DNA of 60,514 nucleotides, taken from IMG/VR virus record IMGVR_UViG_3300025483_000009, positions 1-60,514 of that record; one strand, given 5' to 3'. The stretch's first letter is position 1. Every line of letters begins with the position of its first letter. A program made the position numbers and the translations under genes. Below, one piece after another: positions 1,936 through 40,155 of this stretch. A model generated the notes under the pieces. The model did no database searches. It worked only from the letters and a program-made list of their open reading frames with translations, and was not told the origin of the DNA. Source of the stretch: a virus.

Positions 1936-4335
1936 ATGGCAAGTCAAGTCTCGCCTGGTGTTGTTCTTAGAGAACGCGACCTATCGAACGCTGTTGTTGT
2001 AAATACAACCAGCATTGTTGGCGCATTCGCTTCCACATTCCAAAAAGGTCCTGTTGGAGAGGTAAGAACTATCTCTTCTCAGAAAGATCTACTAGAAACT
2101 TTCGGTAAACCCGTCGATGCTAACGCAGAAGACTGGTTTGTAGCATCGGAATTCTTGGGATATGGCGGACAACTGGCGGTCGTCAGAGCAGAAACTGGCG
2201 CTCTCAACGCAACTGACGACGGGGTAGCACTCTTAGTCAAGAACGATGCAGATTGGGAAGGTGGTACAGGTACATCTAAAAAATTCGTAGCACGCTCCGC
2301 TGGTCTCTGGGGTAATTCCCTTAAGGCAGTTGTCGTAGACGCTGGTGCTGACCAGTATGTCACTTTCGGCGCTGCACCTGCAGGCATCGGCGTTGGCGAT
2401 TCTATCACATTTACTGGTGGCGTAACTGCTAAGGTTCTTAGCTACAACGCTGCTACTCTTACTGCTGCTGTTGTGCTTGCTGCTGGTGCTGCAAGACTAA
2501 CAACTGCAGACACACTCGACACTCCTGATACTGGTGTCGCTGCATCTACCACTGGTCTCGTCGGTGGCACTGGATACCAAGCAGCAACTAGTGTTGCAAC
2601 CACAGGTGGTTCGGGAACAGGTTTGACTGTTGACACTGCAGTTTCTGCTGGTGTTCCTCAGGCAATCACCCTGACCTCTGGTGGTACAACCTACGCTACT
2701 GGTGCTAATATTGCAACCTCTGGTGGATCTGGTAGTGGTCTAACCGTTGATGTTGTTGTTGCTGCTGGTGTTATCCAAACAATTGCAATCAACTCCCCTG
2801 GATCTGGTTACCTTGTTGGTGATACTGTCACTGTTGTTGGTGGTGGTTCTAACGGTACTTTCACAGTTGATATTGTTGAGGGTCCTGTAACTGGAGTTAT
2901 CATTAATGCAGGTGGCGTTGGTTATCTGGTTGGAGATACAATCACCGTTACTGGTGGTGGTTCTGATGCAACCTTTGAGGTTGCTAGCGTAACCGATACC
3001 GCAATTGCACTAACCGCTGTTAGTGACTGGTACACCAACACAATCATTCCTGGCACAACTCTAACACTTGCTGCTATTGGTCCTCGCCCTGGCACATCTG
3101 CATATGCATCTGCTCGTAGTATCAGCAAGGACGAAGTTCACGTTGCTATCATCGACACCACAGGTAATGTCTCTGGTGCTGCTGACACAATTGTAGAGCG
3201 TCTGACATATCTCTCCAAACTATCTGATGGCAAGTCTGCAGAAGGTGCTAACACCTACTACAAGTCTGTAATCAACGATCAGTCTGACTATCTCTATCAC
3301 GGTGCTGCACTTGCAACCGTTGTTTCTGGTGCTGCATGGAATGCCGAGTCTGGTTCCACCTCTGGTGAGATGGGTCTAGTTGGCGTGAGCGGAACTGATC
3401 TTTCTGGTGGTCTTGATGACTATGAGTACACCGCTGGTGAAATCTCTGGTGCATATGATGAGTTTGCTGACTCTGAAAGTGTCAATGCTGACTTCATCCT
3501 AATGGGTGGTTCTCTTGCTAATGAGGCAGATACTAAAGTCAAGGCACTCAAGGCAATTGCTATTGCTGCAGGTCGCAGAGACTCTATCGCATTCGTTTCT
3601 CCACACAAAGGAAACCAAATCGGTGCTGCTGGTGCTCTAACTACCAATGAGCAGAAAGAAAGAACTCTGGCATTCTTTGATGGAATGACCTCCACATCTT
3701 TCGCAGTATTCGATAGCGGTTACAAGTACATGTACGACCGCTTCAATGACAAGTATCGCTATGTACCTTGCAACGGTGATGTTGCTGGTTTGTGCGTGAA
3801 CACTTCTGCTGTTCTAGATGACTGGTTCTCCCCTGCTGGACTCAACAGAGGTGGACTTCGTAACGCAGTAAAACTAGCATACAACCCAACCAAGGCAGAC
3901 AGAGACGAACTGTATTCTGCAAGAATCAACCCAATCGTCTCCATGTCTGGTAGCGGCATTGTTCTATTTGGTGACAAGACTGCACTGGCTTCGCCATCTG
4001 CATTCGACCGCATCAATGTTCGTCGTCTCTTCCTCAACATTGAGAAGAGAGTTGAAGGACTTGCTAAGGGCGTTCTCTTTGAACTCAATGATGAACTCAC
4101 CCGTGGAAACTTCTCTGCTGCAGTTAATGCATACCTAAGTGAAGTTCAAGCAAGACAGGGACTCCAAGATTACTTGGTCGTCTGTGATACTTCCAACAAC
4201 ACACCTGATGTAATTGATCGCAATGAGTTTGTTGCAGAACTATTCCTGAAACCAACTCGTTCTATTAACTATGTAACAGTAACCTTCACAGCAACTAGAA
4301 CTGGTGTCTCGTTCGCTGAAGTCGTAGGACGCTGA
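1936..4335 (+). CDS. 18: Contractile tail sheath protein gp18
   Basis: This protein forms the contractile sheath around the tail tube. The first roughly 200 residues (beginning MASQVSPGVVLRERD) and the C-terminal roughly 400 residues, including the GLN-RGG region and the final sheath core with FTATR, fit the gp18 family. The protein has 799 residues against 659 in T4. Much of the excess is a glycine/threonine/valine-rich repeat block at residues 209-351, described separately, which probably forms a surface domain on the sheath. The start is an ATG 38 nt after a late box, with GGAG upstream. gp19 follows directly, as in T4. Confidence 0.96.
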   Translation: MASQVSPGVVLRERDLSNAVVVNTTSIVGAFASTFQKGPVGEVRTISSQKDLLETFGKPVDANAEDWFVASEFLGYGGQLAVVRAETGALNATDDGVALLVKNDADWEGGTGTSKKFVARSAGLWGNSLKAVVVDAGADQYVTFGAAPAGIGVGDSITFTGGVTAKVLSYNAATLTAAVVLAAGAARLTTADTLDTPDTGVAASTTGLVGGTGYQAATSVATTGGSGTGLTVDTAVSAGVPQAITLTSGGTTYATGANIATSGGSGSGLTVDVVVAAGVIQTIAINSPGSGYLVGDTVTVVGGGSNGTFTVDIVEGPVTGVIINAGGVGYLVGDTITVTGGGSDATFEVASVTDTAIALTAVSDWYTNTIIPGTTLTLAAIGPRPGTSAYASARSISKDEVHVAIIDTTGNVSGAADTIVERLTYLSKLSDGKSAEGANTYYKSVINDQSDYLYHGAALATVVSGAAWNAESGSTSGEMGLVGVSGTDLSGGLDDYEYTAGEISGAYDEFADSESVNADFILMGGSLANEADTKVKALKAIAIAAGRRDSIAFVSPHKGNQIGAAGALTTNEQKERTLAFFDGMTSTSFAVFDSGYKYMYDRFNDKYRYVPCNGDVAGLCVNTSAVLDDWFSPAGLNRGGLRNAVKLAYNPTKADRDELYSARINPIVSMSGSGIVLFGDKTALASPSAFDRINVRRLFLNIEKRVEGLAKGVLFELNDELTRGNFSAAVNAYLSEVQARQGLQDYLVVCDTSNNTPDVIDRNEFVAELFLKPTRSINYVTVTFTATRTGVSFAEVVGR
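2560..2990 (+). repeat. Degenerate Gly-rich protein repeat block inside gp18
   Basis: Residues 209-351 of the sheath protein consist of about four units of roughly 35 residues. Each has a GxGY or GGT core, a GGSG or GGGS turn, a TVDV-type strand and an AGV-type link. The last two units share GYLVGDT almost exactly. T4 gp18 lacks a comparable block. It looks like a beta-rich, externally displayed insertion; that placement is inferred. Confidence 0.7.
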
Positions 4336-4349
4336 TTTTAAACCGTTAC

Positions 4350-4357
4350 ACTAAATA
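4350..4357 (+). promoter_or_regulatory. Late-type box ACTAAATA before gp19
   Basis: ACTAAATA lies 20 nt upstream of the gp19 ATG in the short gp18-gp19 gap. It differs from TATAAATA at the second and third positions. This variant recurs before several structural genes here, which supports a real but weaker late promoter. Confidence 0.45.
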
Positions 4358-4376
4358 GTTCAAAGAGGTTAAACAA

Positions 4377-4952
4377 ATGGCAATTACTAGTAACGTCGAA
4401 GGATTCTTGCAAAAGGTTCAGCATGGCGTTAGACCGAATATGTTTGAAGTGGGGATCACATTCCCCACTGGGATTACTCCCGAAGGTGGTCTTGTAAACA
4501 TGCTGTGCAAATCTGCTGCACTTCCTGCTTCTAGCGTTGGAACAATTGAGGTTCCTTTCCGTGGTAGAACAGTTAAGATTGCGGGAGACCGTACATTTGA
4601 TAACTGGACCGCAACCTTCATCGTTGATGAAGGCATGAAGATTCGTGCTTACTTTGAGAAGTGGCTCGATCTCATCAACTCCCATGAAGACAACACTGGA
4701 CAACTCTTCCGTCCTTCTGGTGCTGACGCATTTGCTAAAGATGTATATGTCACACAGAAGAGAAAGGATGACAGTGCTGGTGGTGCAGATCTCAGAAAGT
4801 ATCATCTGTGGTATGCATTCCCAACTAGCGTTTCTCAGATCGATCTTGCTTATGACAGCAACGATCAGATTGAAGAGTTCAGTGTTGAGTTCCAGTATTC
4901 TTACTGGACCGTAGACGAGGGTGGAGAAGCTGGCATCACTGTCGGCACCTGA
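4377..4952 (+). CDS. 19: Tail tube protein gp19
   Basis: This is the inner tail tube subunit; hexamers stack to form the channel for DNA ejection. Its 191 residues compare with 163 in T4. It begins MAITSNVEGFLQ and contains the tube-family segments GGLVNMLCKSAALP, VPFRGR and FNDNW-like DNWTATF, and ends with an acidic EGGEAG stretch. Position between gp18 and gp20 fixes the assignment. AAAGAGG precedes the ATG as ribosome binding site. It is expected to be expressed late with gp18. Confidence 0.95.
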   Translation: MAITSNVEGFLQKVQHGVRPNMFEVGITFPTGITPEGGLVNMLCKSAALPASSVGTIEVPFRGRTVKIAGDRTFDNWTATFIVDEGMKIRAYFEKWLDLINSHEDNTGQLFRPSGADAFAKDVYVTQKRKDDSAGGADLRKYHLWYAFPTSVSQIDLAYDSNDQIEEFSVEFQYSYWTVDEGGEAGITVGT

Positions 4953-6728: not shown

Positions 6729-6941
6729 ATGGCAGATCAAGTTAACCCTGAATCTGAAGTTGTGGACATCGTTACAGCAATTTCAGACAATAAAAGATCG
6801 GAAGCAATTGATGCTATCCAAGATCTTTTGTATGCTAAAGCGTCTGATGCTATGACAGCATACAAGCAAGTCGTCGCAAAGACGTACTTTGATGAACCAG
6901 TAGGAGAAACTCCAAATGAAACTGATAACGGAACAGATTGA
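6729..6941 (+). CDS. 67: Small prohead core protein, gp67-like
   Basis: This 70-residue acidic, helical protein lies between portal and prohead protease, the position of T4 gene 67 (pip), whose product is part of the internal scaffold and is cut by gp21. It has an EAIDAIQDLLYAKASDAM helix and an acidic, T/N-rich tail. The ATG at 6729 is chosen over an in-frame GTG at 6717. No separate gp68 homologue is visible. The assignment is by position and composition, since sequence similarity to T4 gp67 is not obvious by eye. Confidence 0.65.
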   Translation: MADQVNPESEVVDIVTAISDNKRSEAIDAIQDLLYAKASDAMTAYKQVVAKTYFDEPVGETPNETDNGTD

Positions 6942-7560
6942 AAATGTAAAGGTTATCACCGAAGGTGCAGGTGATAGCAAAAAACTTTATATCGAAGGCG
7001 TATTCCTTCAGTCTGAACTGAAGAATCGTAACGGAAGAGTCTATCCTTTTTCCGTATTGGAAAGAGAGGTTAATCGTTACAATGAAGAGTACATTTCTAC
7101 GAAGCGTGCTCTAGGTGAACTTGGTCACCCAGATGGACCTACTGTAAATCTGGACCGTGTGTCCCATAGAATCATGTCTCTCAAAGCAGAGGGTACTAAC
7201 TTCATGGGTAAAGCACAAATCCTAGATACCCCAATGGGTAGAATTGCTAAGTCTCTATTAGACGAAGGTGTTCAACTTGGTGTTTCTTCCCGAGGCATGG
7301 GTAGTATCGATAAGCAAGAAGGTGTTAGCTATGTCAGAGATGACTTCATGCTTGCTACTGCTGCTGATATTGTAGCAGATCCTTCTGCGCCAGACGCTTT
7401 TGTCAATGGCATCATGGAAGGCAAAGAGTGGGTATGGGACAATGGAATCCTTAAAGAGTCCAAAGTTGCTAAATACCAAAGATACATGAGCGAGTCTACT
7501 CGCCGCAATCTGGAGGAAAGAACACTTCAAGTGTTCGAGAATTTCCTCGCGGGGTTGTAA
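6916..7560 (+). CDS. 21: Prohead core protease gp21
   Basis: This serine protease (family S78/U9) is built into the prohead core and cleaves capsid and core proteins during maturation. It has 214 residues, against 212 in T4. The likely catalytic His is H71 in GELGHPDGP and the Ser is in GVSSRGMG (S124/S125). It overlaps the end of the gp67-like gene by 26 nt. The next gene, gp22, is its main scaffold substrate. The presence of this protease makes capsid-targeting signals elsewhere in the genome testable. Confidence 0.96.
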   Translation: MKLITEQIENVKVITEGAGDSKKLYIEGVFLQSELKNRNGRVYPFSVLEREVNRYNEEYISTKRALGELGHPDGPTVNLDRVSHRIMSLKAEGTNFMGKAQILDTPMGRIAKSLLDEGVQLGVSSRGMGSIDKQEGVSYVRDDFMLATAADIVADPSAPDAFVNGIMEGKEWVWDNGILKESKVAKYQRYMSESTRRNLEERTLQVFENFLAGL

Positions 7561-7605: not shown

Positions 7606-8763
7606 ATGTCAGATATGTTAAACGAAAAGTTTGAGGAGTTTCTGGGCGAGCAGCAGGTCGTTATGGAAGCGGGAGCACAGGATCCCATGCCTAGTGTTAC
7701 TGCCACAGTAATTCCTGGTACAGGTTCAGATCCCTCAGCCGTTTCGGGTGATCCACAGCAACGCGGCGGTGGAAAAGATCCTATGCCAACCGTCCCTCCT
7801 TCTGTAGCAAACGGTCAGTCTGTTACTGATTTAGGTGGTTCGCAATCCAAACCTCTCCATAGCAACAAAGAAGAAGGTGAGGAAAATCCTGGCGCTAAAG
7901 CATCTGCTCCTGTTTCTCAGGACGGCAGCGTAACATCTACCTCTGGTAAACCAGGCAAAGATCCACAACCTTCTGTCGGTGCTGAAGTATCTTATGGCAC
8001 CAAAAAAGGTCCTGATGTTGCATATCCAATCAAGCCTTCCTTTGAGGAAGTTGATCTTTCCGCAGATGTTAACGCTCTCCTAGAGGGCACCGAACTCACC
8101 GAAGAGTTTGCCGAAAAAGCTACGACTATTTTTGAAGCAGCAGTTAAGGCAAAACTCTCCGAAGAGTATGACAGACTTGTAGAACACTTTGCTACCGAAC
8201 TCGACAAGCAACTCGCTGAAGCTAAAGCTGAGATGTCTGAAGAGGTTAATGGCACTGTGAACTACGCTATTGGTCAATGGGTTGAACAAAACCAAGTTGC
8301 TATTGACCGTGGCATCAGAAATGAGATCACTACAGACTTCATCGCAGGTCTCAAGGGTCTCTTTGAAGAGCACTACATCTCTATTCCCGACGAGAAAGTC
8401 GATGTTGTAGAGGGTATGGCTGAATCGATTCGTGAAATGGAAGAGCGCCTAGACGAACAGGTCAAGGCTAATGTGAAACTACAGAATCGTCTTAATGAAT
8501 CTGCAAAAGCGATCATCGTGAAAGAAATTTCCGAGGGTCTTGTAGATACACAGAAAGACAAACTAGCTGCTCTCGCTGAGGGTGTTGACTTTGTTTCTGA
8601 GGAAGAATTTTCTAAGAAACTCACCACCATCAAAGAGTCTTACTTCCCTAAAGAAAAGACTACTGTCAGCGAAGTATCTGATGAGACACCAGTTGAGTCC
8701 GAGGCACAGTCTCCAGCAATGGCGGCATACCTGCAGGCACTCTCCCGCTGGTCTAATAATTGA
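7606..8763 (+). CDS. 22: Prohead core scaffolding protein gp22
   Basis: This is the main internal scaffold of the prohead, later degraded by gp21. Its 385 residues exceed T4 gp22 (269). The N-terminal roughly 140 residues are low in complexity and rich in Pro, Gly, Ser and Asp, with two similar DPMPSV/DPMPTV units and a third DPQPSV. The C-terminal part is strongly acidic and helical, with long coiled-coil segments (for example AESIREMEERLDEQVKAN). It lies directly between gp21 and gp23, as in T4. Confidence 0.93.
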   Translation: MSDMLNEKFEEFLGEQQVVMEAGAQDPMPSVTATVIPGTGSDPSAVSGDPQQRGGGKDPMPTVPPSVANGQSVTDLGGSQSKPLHSNKEEGEENPGAKASAPVSQDGSVTSTSGKPGKDPQPSVGAEVSYGTKKGPDVAYPIKPSFEEVDLSADVNALLEGTELTEEFAEKATTIFEAAVKAKLSEEYDRLVEHFATELDKQLAEAKAEMSEEVNGTVNYAIGQWVEQNQVAIDRGIRNEITTDFIAGLKGLFEEHYISIPDEKVDVVEGMAESIREMEERLDEQVKANVKLQNRLNESAKAIIVKEISEGLVDTQKDKLAALAEGVDFVSEEEFSKKLTTIKESYFPKEKTTVSEVSDETPVESEAQSPAMAAYLQALSRWSNN

Positions 8764-8802: not shown

Positions 8803-10188
8803 ATGTTTAACGCACAAGCTCTAACGGAAAAGTGGGCACCTGTTCTAGGTCATGAGAGCGCAGGCTCTATCAAAGACAATTATAGAAAGGCTGTTACCGC
8901 TGTTCTGTTAGAAAACCAAGAGAGATTCATGCGCGAAGAGCGTGGAATGCTCAACGAAGCAGGTGGCGCTGCAGGAAACATCGCTGGCGCTATCGGTGGT
9001 AACGCACTATCTGGTTCGGGTCTAACCACCCAAACTGGCGGTCTTGCAGGTTTCGATCCTGTAATGATCAGCCTTATCCGTCGTGCAATGCCTAACCTAG
9101 TTGCATATGACATCTGTGGTGTCCAGCCTATGTCTGGTCCTACAGGTCTCATCTTCGCAATGAAGTCGCACTACGAAGGTCGTGGCGGTGCTGAAGCACT
9201 CTACAACGAGCCCGACAGCGACTTCTCTGCAGGTTATGATGCATCTGCAAACGCATACGACACAGCAAATCCAGTTGCAGGTAGCAACCCTGGTCTCCTC
9301 AACAACAGCGGTACTTACGATCGTGGCGTTAAGCCCATGGCTCGTGAAGATGCTGAGGCACTCGGAGAAAGCGGAAAGCTCTTCAGAGAAATGTCGTTCA
9401 GCATTGAGAAGACTTCTGTGACTGCACAGTCCAGAGCTCTCAAGGCAGAATACACCCTGGAACTGGCACAGGACCTTAAGGCAATTCATGGTCTTGATGC
9501 TGAGCAAGAGCTCGCTAACATTCTGTCTAGCGAGATCCTTGCTGAGATCAACCGTGAAGTTGTTAGAACTGTCTACACCATCGCTAAGCCTGGTGCTCAG
9601 AACAACACTGCTAACGCAGGTCGCTTCGACCTCGATGTTGACTCCAACGGTCGTTGGTCGGTTGAGAAATTCAAGGGACTCATGTTCCAGATTGAGCGCG
9701 ACGCTAACGCAATCGCTCAAGAGACTCGTAGAGGAAAGGGCAACTTCATCATCACATCTGCTGATGTTGCTTCTGCACTCGCTATGTCTGGTACGCTTGA
9801 CTACACCTCTGGTCTAACTGGTGCTGGTGGTCCTTCCATCGGTGAAGTTGATGACACTGGTAACCTCCTTGTCGGCACCATGAACGGCAGAATCAAGGTC
9901 TTCGTTGATCCTTACTCTGCTAACGTTTCTAACACCCACTACTACGTAGTTGGTTATAAGGGTTCTTCCCCATATGACGCAGGTCTATTCTACTGCCCAT
10001 ATGTTCCCCTCCAGATGGTCCGTTCGATCGGTCCTGACACCTTCCAGCCCAAGATTGGCTTTAAGACCCGCTACGGCATGGTCGCAAACCCATTCGTTGT
10101 ACAGTCTAACGGTACACCTGATGCTGAAGCACTTACCGCTTCCCGCAACCAGTATTACCGTCGTGTTCTGGTTGAAAACCTCATGTGA
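8803..10188 (+). CDS. 23: Major capsid protein gp23
   Basis: This HK97-fold protein forms the hexamers of the head and is cleaved by gp21 during maturation. It has 461 residues, shorter than T4 gp23 (521). Family features are the MLNEAGG-type N-terminal region before the cleavage site, LIRRAMPNLVAYDICGVQPMSGPTG near residue 90 split over conserved blocks, and GFKTRYGMVANPF near the C-terminus. A good ribosome binding site (CGGAG) precedes the ATG. Codon use is strongly biased, as expected for a highly expressed gene. A strong terminator follows. Confidence 0.98.
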   Translation: MFNAQALTEKWAPVLGHESAGSIKDNYRKAVTAVLLENQERFMREERGMLNEAGGAAGNIAGAIGGNALSGSGLTTQTGGLAGFDPVMISLIRRAMPNLVAYDICGVQPMSGPTGLIFAMKSHYEGRGGAEALYNEPDSDFSAGYDASANAYDTANPVAGSNPGLLNNSGTYDRGVKPMAREDAEALGESGKLFREMSFSIEKTSVTAQSRALKAEYTLELAQDLKAIHGLDAEQELANILSSEILAEINREVVRTVYTIAKPGAQNNTANAGRFDLDVDSNGRWSVEKFKGLMFQIERDANAIAQETRRGKGNFIITSADVASALAMSGTLDYTSGLTGAGGPSIGEVDDTGNLLVGTMNGRIKVFVDPYSANVSNTHYYVVGYKGSSPYDAGLFYCPYVPLQMVRSIGPDTFQPKIGFKTRYGMVANPFVVQSNGTPDAEALTASRNQYYRRVLVENLM

Positions 10189-35276: not shown

Positions 35277-37112
35277 ATGCCACAAGTAAGAGCTACCAAA
35301 CCAAAGATTGCTGGGAAGTATCCTCTGCAAATCAAATATAACTCCCAGGCACTTAATTCTTTCTATCAGACTCAAGCAGAACGAGTCTCGAATACGATTG
35401 ATATTAAGGATGTTGTTGAGAAGCATAATCTCTCTAGTAATGCAGAGACTCATGTTCAACCAGTTGATAATACAAATTCAACTGAGAAGATTAAGTCTGC
35501 ATGGGGTGTAAAGATTACAATCCACCATGCAAAGCATAGAAATTCTATCCTCAATAAAATATACAATGCTCTAGAAAGCAAAGCAGATGAGATTATTCTA
35601 GAGTATCAAAATTTCTTTGCAATGAACCTCTTAAATGTTGTAGTTAGAGGGTTCAAACTGACTAGGAATACTATCTGGTCTCAGGGATCCAATAGTATTT
35701 TCCTGGAGTGCGATGTGTTTGATGATGATGGTAATGTCACTGAGACATTTTATCCATATGCAATTTTTGCTAAGGGAAATGTCAAAGATCAGGGAGATCC
35801 GCATGAACTGATGACTGGTGCTTTGATTGCTATGGGTAGTATCATTCCAGTCGCCAACATTAATACAAAGGATTTAGTTGATAGGAATGCTGCATTAGAC
35901 AATATCACAAATCGAATTCATTCCTATCTTAGTGGTAGTTCTAAGATGGTTGGATGGAAAGAAGCAGAGAGAAAGTTGATCCCAGGTGATCATGTAAACC
36001 TTGCAAAGGCACTGTCTGTTTCTAACTATGTAAATTATTTGATGCAGAGAAACGCTGCTACTGTGGTTAAAGTCTATCAGACTGGTGCTGCATGGGATGC
36101 AGAGATTAGGCACCTTGAGGGTGGTGGTCCAGAGAAAGATCAACTGATTAAATCGTACAATTCTGCCGATCTGATAGTACATTTTGTAAAATCTAGGGTT
36201 AATTATTACTGGGGTCTTTCACTAAAGAAAAAGTCTGGAGCAAATGATGATCCAACCTTATTGAATAAACCATTGGTTGGTGAAGCTTCTAAGAGTGGTA
36301 AGCAAAAAGCAGGATATTTGTACTTAAAGGCACAAGGTAATGAGAAGCGAAACCTAATCAAGGCAGAAGATAATTTTTGGAAACAGGTATACATGGTCAA
36401 GAACGGACCAGCACCTGAGTTTCCTAGAGGTAAAAAATTTGGTGACAATGTAGAACCCACTAACTGGCCACCAGATAAACTACCAGTGAATTGGAAGCAA
36501 AGACTTGATAGTCAACTTGCAGACAATGAAAAGAATGCTGCTTTGACTGGTAGAGAGTTTAAAGGTGACAAGTATCCTACTAACTTTTTCTTTAAAGAGT
36601 TGGACATAGTGTTCAGACGAATCATGAGTGTTCCAGCAAACTTCAGAGAGTTTCTGGACCTTGCATTTAGATTTGACATTGATGATTATGTAAACAATCC
36701 ACACTTCTATTTCAGTCTTATCACTGGAACTGGTGATCTTAAGAATGGAAAGATTGTTGTGTCTAAGGTTGAGGAGAAAAGTAGTGCTTTGATGAAAGAA
36801 GTCTTTAATATTATGTTCAATAAAGGTGTCTCTAATCTTGGCAACCCATCTGCTGTTACTAGACCAGGCACCTTGGAACTGGAGACTACCAAGGGAAAGG
36901 TGCAGGCGTTCGCTTCCAATGCGACAGCTGCCAAACTGTTCTACACCATGTCCATTGACAACATGCCAGTGGTAAACTTAGAGGTGAGATACAAGGGTGC
37001 CATCACTTCATCGCCACAGTTCCAAGTCTTTATCACAACTGAGTTTAAGACTTACTACAAGCGAGCACAACAGATCCTAGAGGCAAAAGGAATCCGCACT
37101 GTCCTACAATGA
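35277..37112 (+). CDS. Unknown 611-residue protein, possibly a nuclease
   Basis: This is the largest unassigned protein in the window. Residues 272-320 contain WDAEIRHLEGG, then SADLIVHF (D298) and WGLSLKKKSG (K317-319), a D...xxK arrangement that resembles PD-(D/E)xK nuclease cores; this is pattern-level only. The middle (residues 340-430) is lysine/proline-rich, and the C-terminal region (VTRPGTLELETTKGKVQ) is beta-rich. It starts after a late box and overlaps the downstream nucleotidyltransferase gene by 4 nt, so the two probably function together. No signal peptide or membrane helix is seen. Confidence 0.85.
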   Translation: MPQVRATKPKIAGKYPLQIKYNSQALNSFYQTQAERVSNTIDIKDVVEKHNLSSNAETHVQPVDNTNSTEKIKSAWGVKITIHHAKHRNSILNKIYNALESKADEIILEYQNFFAMNLLNVVVRGFKLTRNTIWSQGSNSIFLECDVFDDDGNVTETFYPYAIFAKGNVKDQGDPHELMTGALIAMGSIIPVANINTKDLVDRNAALDNITNRIHSYLSGSSKMVGWKEAERKLIPGDHVNLAKALSVSNYVNYLMQRNAATVVKVYQTGAAWDAEIRHLEGGGPEKDQLIKSYNSADLIVHFVKSRVNYYWGLSLKKKSGANDDPTLLNKPLVGEASKSGKQKAGYLYLKAQGNEKRNLIKAEDNFWKQVYMVKNGPAPEFPRGKKFGDNVEPTNWPPDKLPVNWKQRLDSQLADNEKNAALTGREFKGDKYPTNFFFKELDIVFRRIMSVPANFREFLDLAFRFDIDDYVNNPHFYFSLITGTGDLKNGKIVVSKVEEKSSALMKEVFNIMFNKGVSNLGNPSAVTRPGTLELETTKGKVQAFASNATAAKLFYTMSIDNMPVVNLEVRYKGAITSSPQFQVFITTEFKTYYKRAQQILEAKGIRTVLQ

Positions 37113-38332
37113 CTAAGAACCTTCACCTAGAACACATTGAAGATCTGATGCTGATCGAAGGATCGGATGGCATTAAGAGATCGTTTGACTATATTGATGA
37201 TCTAGTAAAAACTTTCTCTGGAGCTCCAAAGAATAACCGTAAGATTTCTACTAAGTGGGATGGAGCACCTGCTATCTTTTGTGGTCCAGACCCAGCAGAT
37301 GGTAAGTTCTTTGTTGCCAAGAAAGGTATCTTCAATAAGAAACCTATCCTATTCAAAAGTATCGAAGAGATTGATGCTGGTGAGAGTCGCGTTGATCTTG
37401 CTAACACATTCAAGGCAGTTTACAGGGGTATGAAACCTCTGTATGACAAAGGTAAACTGAAAGATGTTGTGCAGGGTGACTTTCTATTTCATGCTGGCAC
37501 CAGACAAACCAAGGTTGTCATGGGAGAAAACTGTGTTCTGTTCAAACCACAGTTGATTGCATATTGCATCCCTGATCATGATGATCTGTATGATGCTGCT
37601 AAGAAGTGTAAGGTTTGTGTAGTTATTCATGCTAAGTATCCTGGCAATGGTGCTAAGACTGTTGCTGATTTGTCTGTAAACTTTGGTTTTGATGCGTCAC
37701 ACCTATCTACAGATGACTGTCTGATCATCAGTCCATTTACATCTGAACTTGGATCGAGTATGTCACTCACACCTAGTGAGAAATCTAAGTTGGTGAACTG
37801 GAAGCGTGCTGCTAGAAATCTTACACCCAAGGTAGCACCGTTTGTTGACATGATTGCACCTGAGCATACTGACAACATGGGTGTTGCATATCTACTGAAG
37901 CAATACTTTAATGCTAGGGTCAGGGAAGGACAGAAAATCACCAGTGCATCTAGATTTTATCAAGACTTTTGTGCCTGGTATGAGAATAAATTTAGGACAA
38001 AGTGGGAAGCACTAAAGAATCCTACAGCGATTACTAAATGGAAGAAAAAGTATTGCATCGGAAAGGCAATGCTGGTTGATAACAGGTCTGAGTTTATCAA
38101 CATGGTAGCCCTATATAATACGATCCAGAATATCAAGGGCATATTCATACCTAAGTTTGAAGCAGGAGAGAGGTTCAAAACTTTCTACTACAATGAGGAT
38201 GGAACTTATGAAGTTGGTGATCAGGAAGGTTATGTTGTTGTTAGGGAGTCAACGAACGCAGTAAAGATTGTTCAACGACTCGGTGGATTTAGCGAGAGAA
38301 ACTTCAATGAGATGAAGCGTTGGGCTAAATGA
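37109..38332 (+). CDS. KxDG nucleotidyltransferase (ligase-like; DUF6267-type)
   Basis: This 407-residue protein has the signature of covalent nucleotidyltransferases: ISTKWDGAPAIFCG, with K49 as expected adenylated lysine and D51-G52. QGDFLFHAG near residue 129 fits motif III-like, EGYVVVRE (373-380) fits motif IV and AVKIV (K386) motif V. It could be an RNA or DNA ligase or a capping-type enzyme. It is unlike T4 DNA ligase gp30 and Rnl1/Rnl2 outside the motifs. A helical region near 260-350 may be a substrate-binding domain. It is flanked by the 611-residue protein and an NMNAT-like gene with 4-nt overlaps. Confidence 0.8.
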   Translation: MTKNLHLEHIEDLMLIEGSDGIKRSFDYIDDLVKTFSGAPKNNRKISTKWDGAPAIFCGPDPADGKFFVAKKGIFNKKPILFKSIEEIDAGESRVDLANTFKAVYRGMKPLYDKGKLKDVVQGDFLFHAGTRQTKVVMGENCVLFKPQLIAYCIPDHDDLYDAAKKCKVCVVIHAKYPGNGAKTVADLSVNFGFDASHLSTDDCLIISPFTSELGSSMSLTPSEKSKLVNWKRAARNLTPKVAPFVDMIAPEHTDNMGVAYLLKQYFNARVREGQKITSASRFYQDFCAWYENKFRTKWEALKNPTAITKWKKKYCIGKAMLVDNRSEFINMVALYNTIQNIKGIFIPKFEAGERFKTFYYNEDGTYEVGDQEGYVVVRESTNAVKIVQRLGGFSERNFNEMKRWAK

Positions 38333-38895
38333 ACAGGAAAATCGTACTAGCATTCGGTAGATTTAATCCACCGACAATCGGACACGAAAAACTAATCGAA
38401 GCGTGTGCTACTGCAGCAAGGCAGCATGGGTGTGACTATAAAGTTTACATGAGTATCAAAGTTGATAAAGCAAAGAACCCTTTGCCCGCTGAAGAAAAAC
38501 TCTGGTTTATGAAACAGATGTTTCCCAATCATGCTGAGCATATCTTTGCTGATACTGATGTATCGAATCCGTTTTTGTTGCTAGAAATGTTCAACAAAGA
38601 GTATGATGAAGTTGTGTTTGTTGCTGGTTCTGATAGAGTCTCGAACTATGAGTCCCAGTTCAATAAACATATGAACGGACCTACTGCAACTTTCTATTAC
38701 AGTTCACTTATAATACAATCTTCGGGTGAGAGAGACCCTGACTCTGAGGGTGCTTCTGGTATGTCTGCTAGTAAGATGCGTGCAGCAGTCAAAGAAGGTG
38801 ATATAATATCTTTTAGAAAAGGTATACCAAAAACTTTAGGACGCGCAGAGATGCTGATGCTATACAATGCTGTACATGATGGGATGGGACTATGA
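38329..38895 (+). CDS. NMNAT/cytidylyltransferase-like nucleotidyltransferase
   Basis: This 188-residue alpha/beta phosphodiesterase-type nucleotidyltransferase has GRFNPPTIGHEKLI (residues 10-23) with the HxGH-like TIGH motif and the ISxxSTxxR-like GMSASKMR (144-151). It also has VAGSDR at 98-103. This matches nicotinamide-mononucleotide or phosphopantetheine adenylyltransferases, and related phage proteins (for example NadV/NatV systems) act in NAD synthesis. The exact substrate cannot be told from the sequence. It overlaps both neighbours by 4 nt. Confidence 0.85.
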   Translation: MNRKIVLAFGRFNPPTIGHEKLIEACATAARQHGCDYKVYMSIKVDKAKNPLPAEEKLWFMKQMFPNHAEHIFADTDVSNPFLLLEMFNKEYDEVVFVAGSDRVSNYESQFNKHMNGPTATFYYSSLIIQSSGERDPDSEGASGMSASKMRAAVKEGDIISFRKGIPKTLGRAEMLMLYNAVHDGMGL

Positions 38896-39101
38896 AAGAT
38901 TTTAAAAAACTTAGAGAGCAAGCGACAAGACAATCACATAGGCAAGCACCCTTGAAAGAAGGTGACTTTATTATGTCTTCTAGGACAGGTGATAAGGGAA
39001 CTATCCATCGGTCTGGTGTTAACTATGTGATTGCTATCACTGAGGATGGAAAAATGTTTCGTGAGTGGGTAAAGGATATTCGTCCTATAAATAAAGGATA
39101 G
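38892..39101 (+). CDS. Small KOW-like protein with CTS-like N-terminus
   Basis: This 69-residue basic protein begins MKDFKKLREQ, close to the capsid-targeting sequence of T4 internal proteins (MKTYQEFIAE). The rest, PLKEGDFIMSSRTGDKGTIHRSG and VIAITEDGKMFREWVKDI, forms a KOW/SH3-like beta barrel. The coupling to the nucleotidyltransferase genes suggests shared expression. If the N-terminus is a real targeting signal, gp21 would cleave it and the barrel would be packaged. Confidence 0.65.
   Translation: MKDFKKLREQATRQSHRQAPLKEGDFIMSSRTGDKGTIHRSGVNYVIAITEDGKMFREWVKDIRPINKG
39086..39093 (+). promoter_or_regulatory. Late promoter TATAAATA before the 39.1-kb genes
   Basis: A perfect TATAAATA box lies 29 nt upstream of the gene at 39122 and overlaps the end of the small KOW-like gene. 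It points to late expression of the following genes. Confidence 0.7.
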
Positions 39102-39121
39102 AAGATCTTCGACTTTAAACA

Positions 39122-39775
39122 ATGGATAAGCAGAGACCTGTTAATAAAATCGCTCATAATGATGCATACTCTGCGTCGCTGATGGAGATGTATACAAATT
39201 GGATGGGTGGAGATTGCTTCCAAGGTAGTCATATCCCTGAAGCATTTGAAGGTATGGATCCTCAGTCTCATGGTGCTGAGATTGAAGACACCACCAAAAA
39301 GAAGAAGGCAGTAAAGAAAGAAAAATCTGTCGCTGAAGATGTTGAGATTCTTGAGCGCGAAGAGTATGAAATCGATGGATTTACTTATGTCATTGAAAAG
39401 CAGAAAGGTCTAGATGGCAAGGCATGTTGGAAAGGATACAAACTTGCTGGCACCAAGAAGAAAGGTGGTAAGACTGTTGACAACTGCGTTAAGGCAGGTT
39501 TTGAACCCGAAGGCAACGAGCTTACCGAAAAGAAAGTACAGTGCCCAGAGTGCAAAGGATCTGGTTGCGGTCACTGTGATGACAAAGGATATCATCTCAA
39601 AGAATACTTTGAGAAAGAGAATGGTAAGATGGTGAATGAGAAGAAACTCGATCCAGTAGGTAAGGAAGATTCTGATATCGACAACGATGGTGATGCAGAT
39701 AAGTCTGATAAGTATCTACATGCTCGCCGTAAGAAAGTCGGTAAGATTGTTGCAATGTCGAAAAAGAAAAAATGA
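39122..39775 (+). CDS. Unknown virion-type protein with zinc finger and Asp-rich motif
   Basis: This 217-residue lysine-rich protein has three recognisable short modules. GKACWKGYKLAGTKKKGGKTV is followed by DNCVK. A DnaJ-like zinc finger CPECKGSGCGHC lies near residue 140. KEDSDIDNDGDADKSDKYL near 183-201 is an EF-hand/dockerin-like calcium loop. Such modules recur in marine phage proteins, some found in virions. It has a strong late promoter. Function is unknown. Confidence 0.75.
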   Translation: MDKQRPVNKIAHNDAYSASLMEMYTNWMGGDCFQGSHIPEAFEGMDPQSHGAEIEDTTKKKKAVKKEKSVAEDVEILEREEYEIDGFTYVIEKQKGLDGKACWKGYKLAGTKKKGGKTVDNCVKAGFEPEGNELTEKKVQCPECKGSGCGHCDDKGYHLKEYFEKENGKMVNEKKLDPVGKEDSDIDNDGDADKSDKYLHARRKKVGKIVAMSKKKK

Positions 39776-40155
39776 AAACATTCAAACAGTTCCGTGAGGA
39801 ATGTGAGTGTAAAGATAAGGAACGCAAAGTAAAGAAGGCAAAGAAAACTGTTGAGGTGATGCCAACTGTAAAGGATGGTCCATCAAGAGAGTATAGACCT
39901 ACAAAGTCTGAGTCTTTTGTTGGCAACTATCAAGGTCCCTTGTATGCAAGACATCCTGATCTGGTCATTGCGGAGAAAGCAGTCTCCAAAAAGCAACAGA
40001 AATTTATGGGTATGGTCCGAGCTGCTCAGAAGGGTGAGGGCGCGTCGTCGCCTGAGGTTGCCAAAGTTGCTTCCAGCATGAAGAAGAAAGATGTGAAAGA
40101 TTTTGCATCCACAAAACACAAAGGGTTGCCTGAAAAAAAGAAGGCAAAACAATAA
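39772..40155 (+). CDS. Basic protein with CTS-like N-terminus
   Basis: This 127-residue, very lysine-rich protein begins MKTFKQFREECECK, which matches the T4 capsid-targeting pattern MKTYQEFIAE at most key positions. The middle has SESFVGNYQGPLYARHPDL, and the C-terminus is basic helical (KKKDVKDFASTKHKGLPEKKKAKQ). A basic, CTS-bearing late protein is what an internal, DNA-associated, co-injected protein should look like. It overlaps the upstream gene by 4 nt. Confidence 0.65.
   Translation: MKTFKQFREECECKDKERKVKKAKKTVEVMPTVKDGPSREYRPTKSESFVGNYQGPLYARHPDLVIAEKAVSKKQQKFMGMVRAAQKGEGASSPEVAKVASSMKKKDVKDFASTKHKGLPEKKKAKQ

Follow-up and report, generated by a model that had tools for sequence, protein, structure and literature searches.

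Do two small proteins of a T4-like phage begin with the signal that directs T4 internal proteins into the prohead, and would the gp21 protease remove it there? The question comes from a 60.5-kb virus record (here the window, meaning the whole stretch of 60,514 nucleotides that was analysed), in which a reading of the sequence alone had likened the N-termini of the proteins starting at 38892 (69 aa, MKDFKKLREQ) and 39772 (127 aa, MKTFKQFREE) to the T4 sequence MKTYQEFIAE. The source of both proteins is a marine T4-like phage. Its T4-type head genes, all on the plus strand, include the gp21 prohead protease (6916-7560; PF03420, E 6e-38) and the gp22 scaffold (7606-8763; PF25623, E 1e-72), both correctly recognized by that reading, and a gene at 8803-10188 that we take to encode the gp23 major capsid protein. 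The gp22 protein itself begins MSDMLNEKFEEFLGEQQ, with a tag-like FxxFLxE at residues 9-15.

Two conserved N-termini in one gene run

The two proteins belong to a closely packed run of plus-strand genes. It consists of a DUF6267 protein (37109-38332; PF19782), which has no tag in the window but is tagged in locus L177 and contains a KWDG motif, presumably ligase-like; an untagged cytidylyltransferase-like nucleotidyltransferase (38329-38895; PF01467, phrog_3041); the 69-aa protein, which we call KOW (38892-39101; phrog_4808); a modular protein (39122-39775); and the 127-aa DUF3008 protein (39772-40155). The stop of the nucleotidyltransferase overlaps the KOW start, and because both candidate ATGs overlap the previous stop as ATGA, the starts at 38892 and 39772 are firm.

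The earlier description of the first protein as a KOW-like barrel agrees with its AlphaFold model (mean pLDDT 81), in which a helix at residues 4-16, placed with modest confidence, precedes five strands of a predicted SH3-like barrel. Foldseek returned Tudor, MutS2 and Spt5-KOW barrels in its top rows, with weak E-values and a single match at E<=0.001, and a Pfam scan of the protein gave no KOW family match. Fused cytidylyltransferases contain a homologue of it as their C-terminal domain. In public records and in phrog_4808, this protein and its relatives go under the name 'ribonucleotide reductase alpha subunit' or NrdB, which seems to be an annotation error that has spread.

Conservation of its tag-like N-terminus (residues 1-10; 38892-38921, plus strand) was followed in 71 distinct standalone proteins, comprising that of the window and those from protein-based searches; MKDFKKLR was one of six search peptides for one subset, so that this part of the set is biased toward the tag, and the other loci were not selected by it. 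Residue 4 is F in 71/71, residue 7 is L in 68/71 and I in 3/71, residue 8 is R and residue 9 is E in 69/71 each, and residue 10 is E in 45/71 and Q in 25/71. The S-PM2 protein has a degenerate MKDFREIKNK that lacks E9 and E10. Conservation extends beyond residue 10, to A11, R13, Q14 and R17.

The second protein, which had been called very basic, is indeed lysine-rich; it consists of a tag (residues 1-10; 39772-39801, plus strand), a Cys/Lys-rich N-module and, at its end, a DUF3008 domain (PF11450; residues 70-123, 39979-40140, plus strand) that scores 26.2 bits (Pfam cut-off 24). In 48 distinct proteins with this N-module, the window's included, F4 is again invariant (48/48), so the T4-like N-termini noticed in the window are real in both families. 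Residue 7 is F in 30/48 and L in 18/48, R8 is present in 44/48, and E9, E10 and C11 each in 48/48, in a set for which EECECKDK (residues 9-16) was one of six search peptides. The N-module is internal in 0/123 matches and is followed by varied C-terminal modules, DUF3008 among them in 38/48 distinct proteins.

An N-terminal tag is absent from the DUF3008 proteins of S-PM2, S-RIM32 and the loci L126 and L130, and also from S-SCSM1_93, which matches the window protein at E 7e-28 (HMM) and is labelled a virion protein in its GenBank record. The C-terminus of S-SCSM1_93 (L420:31626-31835) reads RTFKEFLEYIE, as though a tag-like segment sat at that end. Two further relatives proposed by eye, S-CREM2 ORF155 for the 39772 protein and S-SCSM1_97 for the 41415 protein, were set aside after no HMM match was obtained. 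The modules CWKGY..GTKKKGGK..NC, LDPVGKEDxDIDNDGD, DUF3008 and LPEWVQSK reappear in varying combinations in larger phage proteins (39122-39775 in the window and others in L128-L158), some of them virion-detected. The 39122 protein, with its CWKGY... and LDPVGKED...DNDGD modules, shares modules with S-SZBM1_139, S-CREM2 ORF160 and S-SCSM1_92, which are detected or labelled in virions.

Tag patterns across viral sequences and virion proteomes

To place these N-termini among other phage proteins, we back-translated MKxFxxF[ILM]xE|A, the canonical T4 tag including its cut (marked by the bar), and scanned viral_contigs with it; the control was a pattern in which the same codons were permuted. The canonical pattern occurs in at least 120 viral stretches as against 11 for the control, and 123/123 matches listed (120 loci), compared with 5/11 in the control, start an open frame of at least 40 aa or one that leaves the contig. 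The window-type variant, MKxFKx[LF][RS]EE, occurs in at least 119 stretches as against 1 for its permuted control, a comparison qualified by the fact that KOW and REEC relatives make up 104/141 of the variant matches listed. These 141 matches come from 118 of the at least 119 stretches and were sorted by a text rule into 77 KOW, 27 REEC/DUF3008-type and 37 other, at least two of the last (L361, L383) looking like KOW; closed frames shorter than 40 aa account for 3/141. A gp21-type protease is present in 11/19 of the longest tagged records listed (>=38 kb), including 5/5 of those of at least 100 kb, and in 1/7 control records of at least 30 kb.

When the mature parts of proteins of at least 50 aa were clustered (BLAST >45 bits, single linkage), the tags among the matches listed fell on about 45 clusters, 32 canonical, 15 variant (REE) and 2 with both, a rough figure because single linkage joins domains via fusions and leaves remote relatives separate. 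By these clusters, unrelated cargo proteins share each tag type. One and the same nucleotidyltransferase domain bears the canonical tag in L179, L191 and L197, and in L331 and L343 it has MKSFKQFREE or MKSFKQFSEE shortly before it. A Pfam scan of 20 tagged cargo representatives gave families for 4 only. Adjacent genes in one locus (L189:3736-4149 and 4149-4529) each bear a canonical tag; a GNAT domain (PF13508) is present in the second, and the first (YYHGTP...IKKSGF) had no Pfam match and is, we presume from its appearance, ADP-ribosyltransferase-like. The segment NISGDFNG follows the tag in the small proteins S-SZBM1_191 (L160:12312-12629), S-SCSM1_30 (L425:34215-34535) and one of L227, the first two lying among head/tail genes and being absent from the detected or labelled virion proteins.

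Virion proteomes of cyanophages, as given in the available portions of the published reports, connect such tags with packaged proteins. For S-CREM2, with 52 virion proteins (PMC10665884), a canonical tag beginning at residues 3-5 is found on 5/52 detected and 1/167 undetected proteins (p 0.003); the five are a SAM hydrolase (MKDFDSFLEE), ORF13 (MKDLHSFLTE), a kinase (MKRFDAFLTE), ORF136 (MQTFSMFFSE) and the cytidylyltransferase (MKNFSSFLTE|A). With a wider window of residues 3-20 the association is weaker (7/52 vs 6/167, p 0.015). In the virion-detected Cas9 of the same phage (ORF12; L159:7704-10313), residues 18-26 read RFASFMAE|A, a tag of the T4 type together with a cut site; 17 residues separate it from the annotated start.

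For S-SZBM1 (PMC9146016), the cytidylyltransferase (MRFRQFIIE|A) is listed as detected and the small tagged proteins 191 and 192 are not; in this phage alone the tag does not predict detection (1/30 vs 2/188, p 0.36). The S-SCSM1 report gives 45 detected proteins, including the NMNAT ORF91 (PMC9602691), whose N-terminus is MKSFLQFLKE|A, and by our own count 48 CDS carry a virion-protein label in its GenBank record; a scan of annotated ATG starts found three tagged proteins without that label. Pooled over the reported proteins of these three phages, the tag falls on 7/130 virion proteins vs 6/589 others with the 48 labels (p 0.004) and on 7/127 vs 6/592 with the paper's 45 (p 0.003). The cytidylyltransferase of S-SM1 (T4-GC190), which begins MKKFSAFLNE|A, is likewise reported in the virion (PMC3037559). 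In the accessible text, NMNAT is also mentioned for S-CBWM1 virions (PMC9602691) and is named in a figure legend for S-CREM1, with none described among the 14 detected proteins (PMC9964418). The cytidylyltransferase of S-PM2 (GC190), a phage with a separate KOW gene, was not detected in the virion in one earlier study (PMC3037559).

All four cytidylyltransferases reported in virions, those of S-CREM2, S-SZBM1, S-SCSM1 and S-SM1, join the canonical tag, the enzyme and a C-terminal KOW domain (HMM) in one chain, and the virion-reported tagged relatives of the window set are, as far as these sources list them, canonically tagged proteins, with KOW present among them as a fused domain. Among the labelled S-SCSM1 proteins, _92 and _93 match the window 39122 and DUF3008 proteins (HMM) and _95 matches the 40464 protein over a short stretch, with no HMM match to window proteins for _89, _90 and _97. 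The KOW and DUF3008 proteins are probably packaged, because like tags stand on many unrelated phage proteins, some of which have been found in virions. The earlier proposal of packaging thus gains indirect support, from the fusion of KOW to a virion-reported enzyme in four cyanophages and from the labelled DUF3008 protein of S-SCSM1, and we regard packaging of the two window proteins as likely by sequence relationship.

Split enzymes and what the N-termini may do

The suggestion that these proteins belong with the nucleotidyltransferase set draws support from the fusion of KOW to the enzyme in other phages. We classified 133 nucleotidyltransferase ORFs (from L002-L158, the window, S-CREM2 and S-SZBM1; ORFs without the domain start were dropped). 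In 108 loci (65 distinct enzymes), a separate KOW gene lies within 1.5 kb, and in 108/108 the enzyme is untagged and the KOW protein has F4..L/I7; enzyme-KOW fusions, found in 10 loci (8 distinct), have the canonical tag in 10/10. The Synechococcus phages S-WAM2 and S-CAM3 are examples of the split type: in both, the KOW match lies on a gene annotated separately beside that of the cytidylyltransferase. The remaining 15 are L002-L005, where KOW starts with GTG and the gene caller used ATG; ten DUF6267-enzyme fusions in which no tag was seen at the N-terminus (three are truncated 5'), all ten with an MKDF-type KOW (degenerate in S-PM2) 1.76-1.87 kb downstream; and L144, where no KOW was seen. 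Over all loci, tag-selected ones included, 57/63 distinct fused proteins bear the canonical tag and two bear MKSFKQFSEE.

A profile HMM built from 108 standalone KOW proteins found the domain in 63/63 fused proteins, with matches beginning at model positions 4-16. Standalone residues 1-3 were unmatched in 63/63, residues 4-5 in 60/63, and residues 6-11 were partly aligned, so that the first five standalone residues constitute an additional segment in no fewer than 60/63. We therefore do not favour the idea that MKDFKKLRE corresponds to the LRE helix found inside fused proteins: the HMM places the shared L-R at residues 12-13, with no gap from there to F22 and G25. On visual comparison, the fused stretch (KFDWKNLREN in one case) seems alignable to MKDFKKLRE, and a gapped alignment could revive that idea, since residues 6-11 partly align.

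In T4, according to the accessible part of a paper that describes its genetics (PMC9026906), targeting depends mainly on residues 4 and 7 and processing on residues 8 and 10, with cuts after L/I-x-E. The targeting positions are matched in the window, by F4/L7 in KOW and F4/F7 in the DUF3008 protein; the processing positions are poorly matched, with R8 in both, Q10 in KOW and E10 in the DUF3008 protein. We consider it most likely that both N-termini are T4 tags of a processing-variant type and that the two proteins belong to a nucleotidyltransferase set carried in the virion; we believe somewhat more than we doubt that both enter the prohead with that set. The variant keeps the cargo-directing residues (an aromatic at 4, F or L at 7 and, in this case, M1-K2 as well), and R-E-E/Q occupies the place of the gp21 cut site; the two proteins would travel into the prohead alongside the nucleotidyltransferase set, probably staying uncut or being cut elsewhere. 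In many phages a single chain holds canonical tag, nucleotidyltransferase and KOW domain; in phages of the window type the chain is split, the enzyme untagged and the tag on the KOW subunit. Because the split enzyme is untagged while its KOW subunit is tagged, KOW may serve as a loading adaptor. The DUF3008 protein would be a small basic companion, associated with DNA or the core, and both may be injected.

That the N-termini are ordinary amphipathic helices with no part in packaging, docking the enzyme in KOW and binding DNA or a partner in the DUF3008 protein, seems to us an unlikely account. In its favour, KOW conservation reaches residue 17, as for a structural helix, the KOW model has a single helix at 4-16, and an LRE segment opens most fused KOW domains. 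Such helices would not lead one to expect the 10-residue pattern at the start of about 15 clusters with no detected common mature sequence among the matches listed, nor its restriction to the N-terminus in the N-module matches, nor that it takes the place of the canonical tag on the same nucleotidyltransferase domain.

The full T4 mechanism, in which prohead targeting is followed by a gp21 cut after residue 9 or 10, is improbable. It could draw on the near-invariant E9, on L7-R8-E9 fitting L-x-E in the KOW family and on the presence of gp21 in the window. However, R8 replaces I/L, residue 10 is often Q in KOW proteins, and residue 11 is A in only 9/35 other REE proteins and varied in the rest. 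A motif scan of both window proteins found no L/I-x-E at residues 8-10 and, further down, no [LIM]-x-E|[AGS] site in the DUF3008 protein and only LKE|G at 23 in KOW, inside the barrel EGD. Candidate sites in window head proteins do obey an L/I-x-E-type rule (gp23 MLNE|AGG at residue 52, gp21 VITE|GAG). Nor are downstream [LIMV]-x-E|[AGS] sites enriched in REE proteins of other families (5/29 vs 48/407 background, p 0.27), a result on which we rejected downstream cutting of the IPI type as a rule for the REE class. We also rejected LIE|G at residue 17 of DUF6267 as a site of cutting, since it falls within the Pfam domain and is replaced by LYQG in the tagged relative from L177. Without L/I-x-E at 8-10 or enriched downstream sites, removal by gp21, which the sequence-only reading had suggested, is unsupported and T4-style cleavage of either protein unlikely. 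Chance resemblance of short Lys/Phe-rich N-termini is very improbable given the low counts of the permuted controls and the conservation of the KOW and N-module tags across phages, even though a loose motif matches 30 possible starts in the window alone, mostly of unlikely genes.

A possible wider delivery code and comparison with known systems

More important than the two proteins is how widely the canonical T4 tag occurs: dozens of cargo families carry it, in phages from marine and other environments, and virion proteomes lend support. We tentatively envision, as a possibility falling a little short of probable, that in marine T4-like phages the T4 prohead tag works as a delivery code, general and movable, for an arsenal of injected proteins, and that when an enzyme is split the tag moves to a partner that loads the untagged enzyme. 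If so, this arsenal would span about 45 cargo clusters among the matches listed, including nucleotidyltransferases, DUF6267, GNAT and a lytic transglycosylase-like protein, to which S-CREM2 adds a SAM hydrolase, a kinase and Cas9. The S-CREM2 authors, in the available part of their report, were unable to tell packaged kinases and cytidylyltransferases from purification leftovers (PMC10665884); a readable N-terminal tag could enable a sequence-based listing of the proteins likely to be carried into the host by a marine phage, and could be tested directly. Among the open-access papers searched, 'cyanophage' and 'capsid targeting sequence' occur together in one, a T4 review, and the titles and abstract openings of the papers listed by broader searches, a scope outside which most subscription papers fall, gave no announcement of such tags in cyanophages.

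T4 itself offers a close comparison. MKTYQEFIAE had been taken as the signal of the T4 internal proteins and Alt; this holds for IPII and IPIII only, since IPI begins MKTFKEFTST and Alt MELITELFDE. Like IPII and IPIII, the window proteins have an N-terminal segment with K2, an aromatic at 4, F/L at 7 and an acidic residue near 10, on unrelated cargo in a phage with gp21 and gp22; unlike them (I8), they have R8 and no L/I-x-E at 8-10, with Q10 in KOW. IPI (MKTFKEF) and the DUF3008 protein (MKTFKQF) have the targeting part in common and no cut motif at 8-10, but IPI has ITE|A at residue 19, a site predicted from the motif, whereas the DUF3008 protein has no downstream site. By analogy with IPI, whose motif-predicted cut site lies only at 19, targeting and cutting appear separable. 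Among cyanophages, S-SM1_190, S-SCSM1_91, S-CREM2 ORF154 and S-SZBM1_140 combine the same enzyme and KOW domain as the window and are reported in virions in the portions of the studies available; there a single tagged chain holds both, whereas in the window enzyme and KOW are split and the tag is on KOW.
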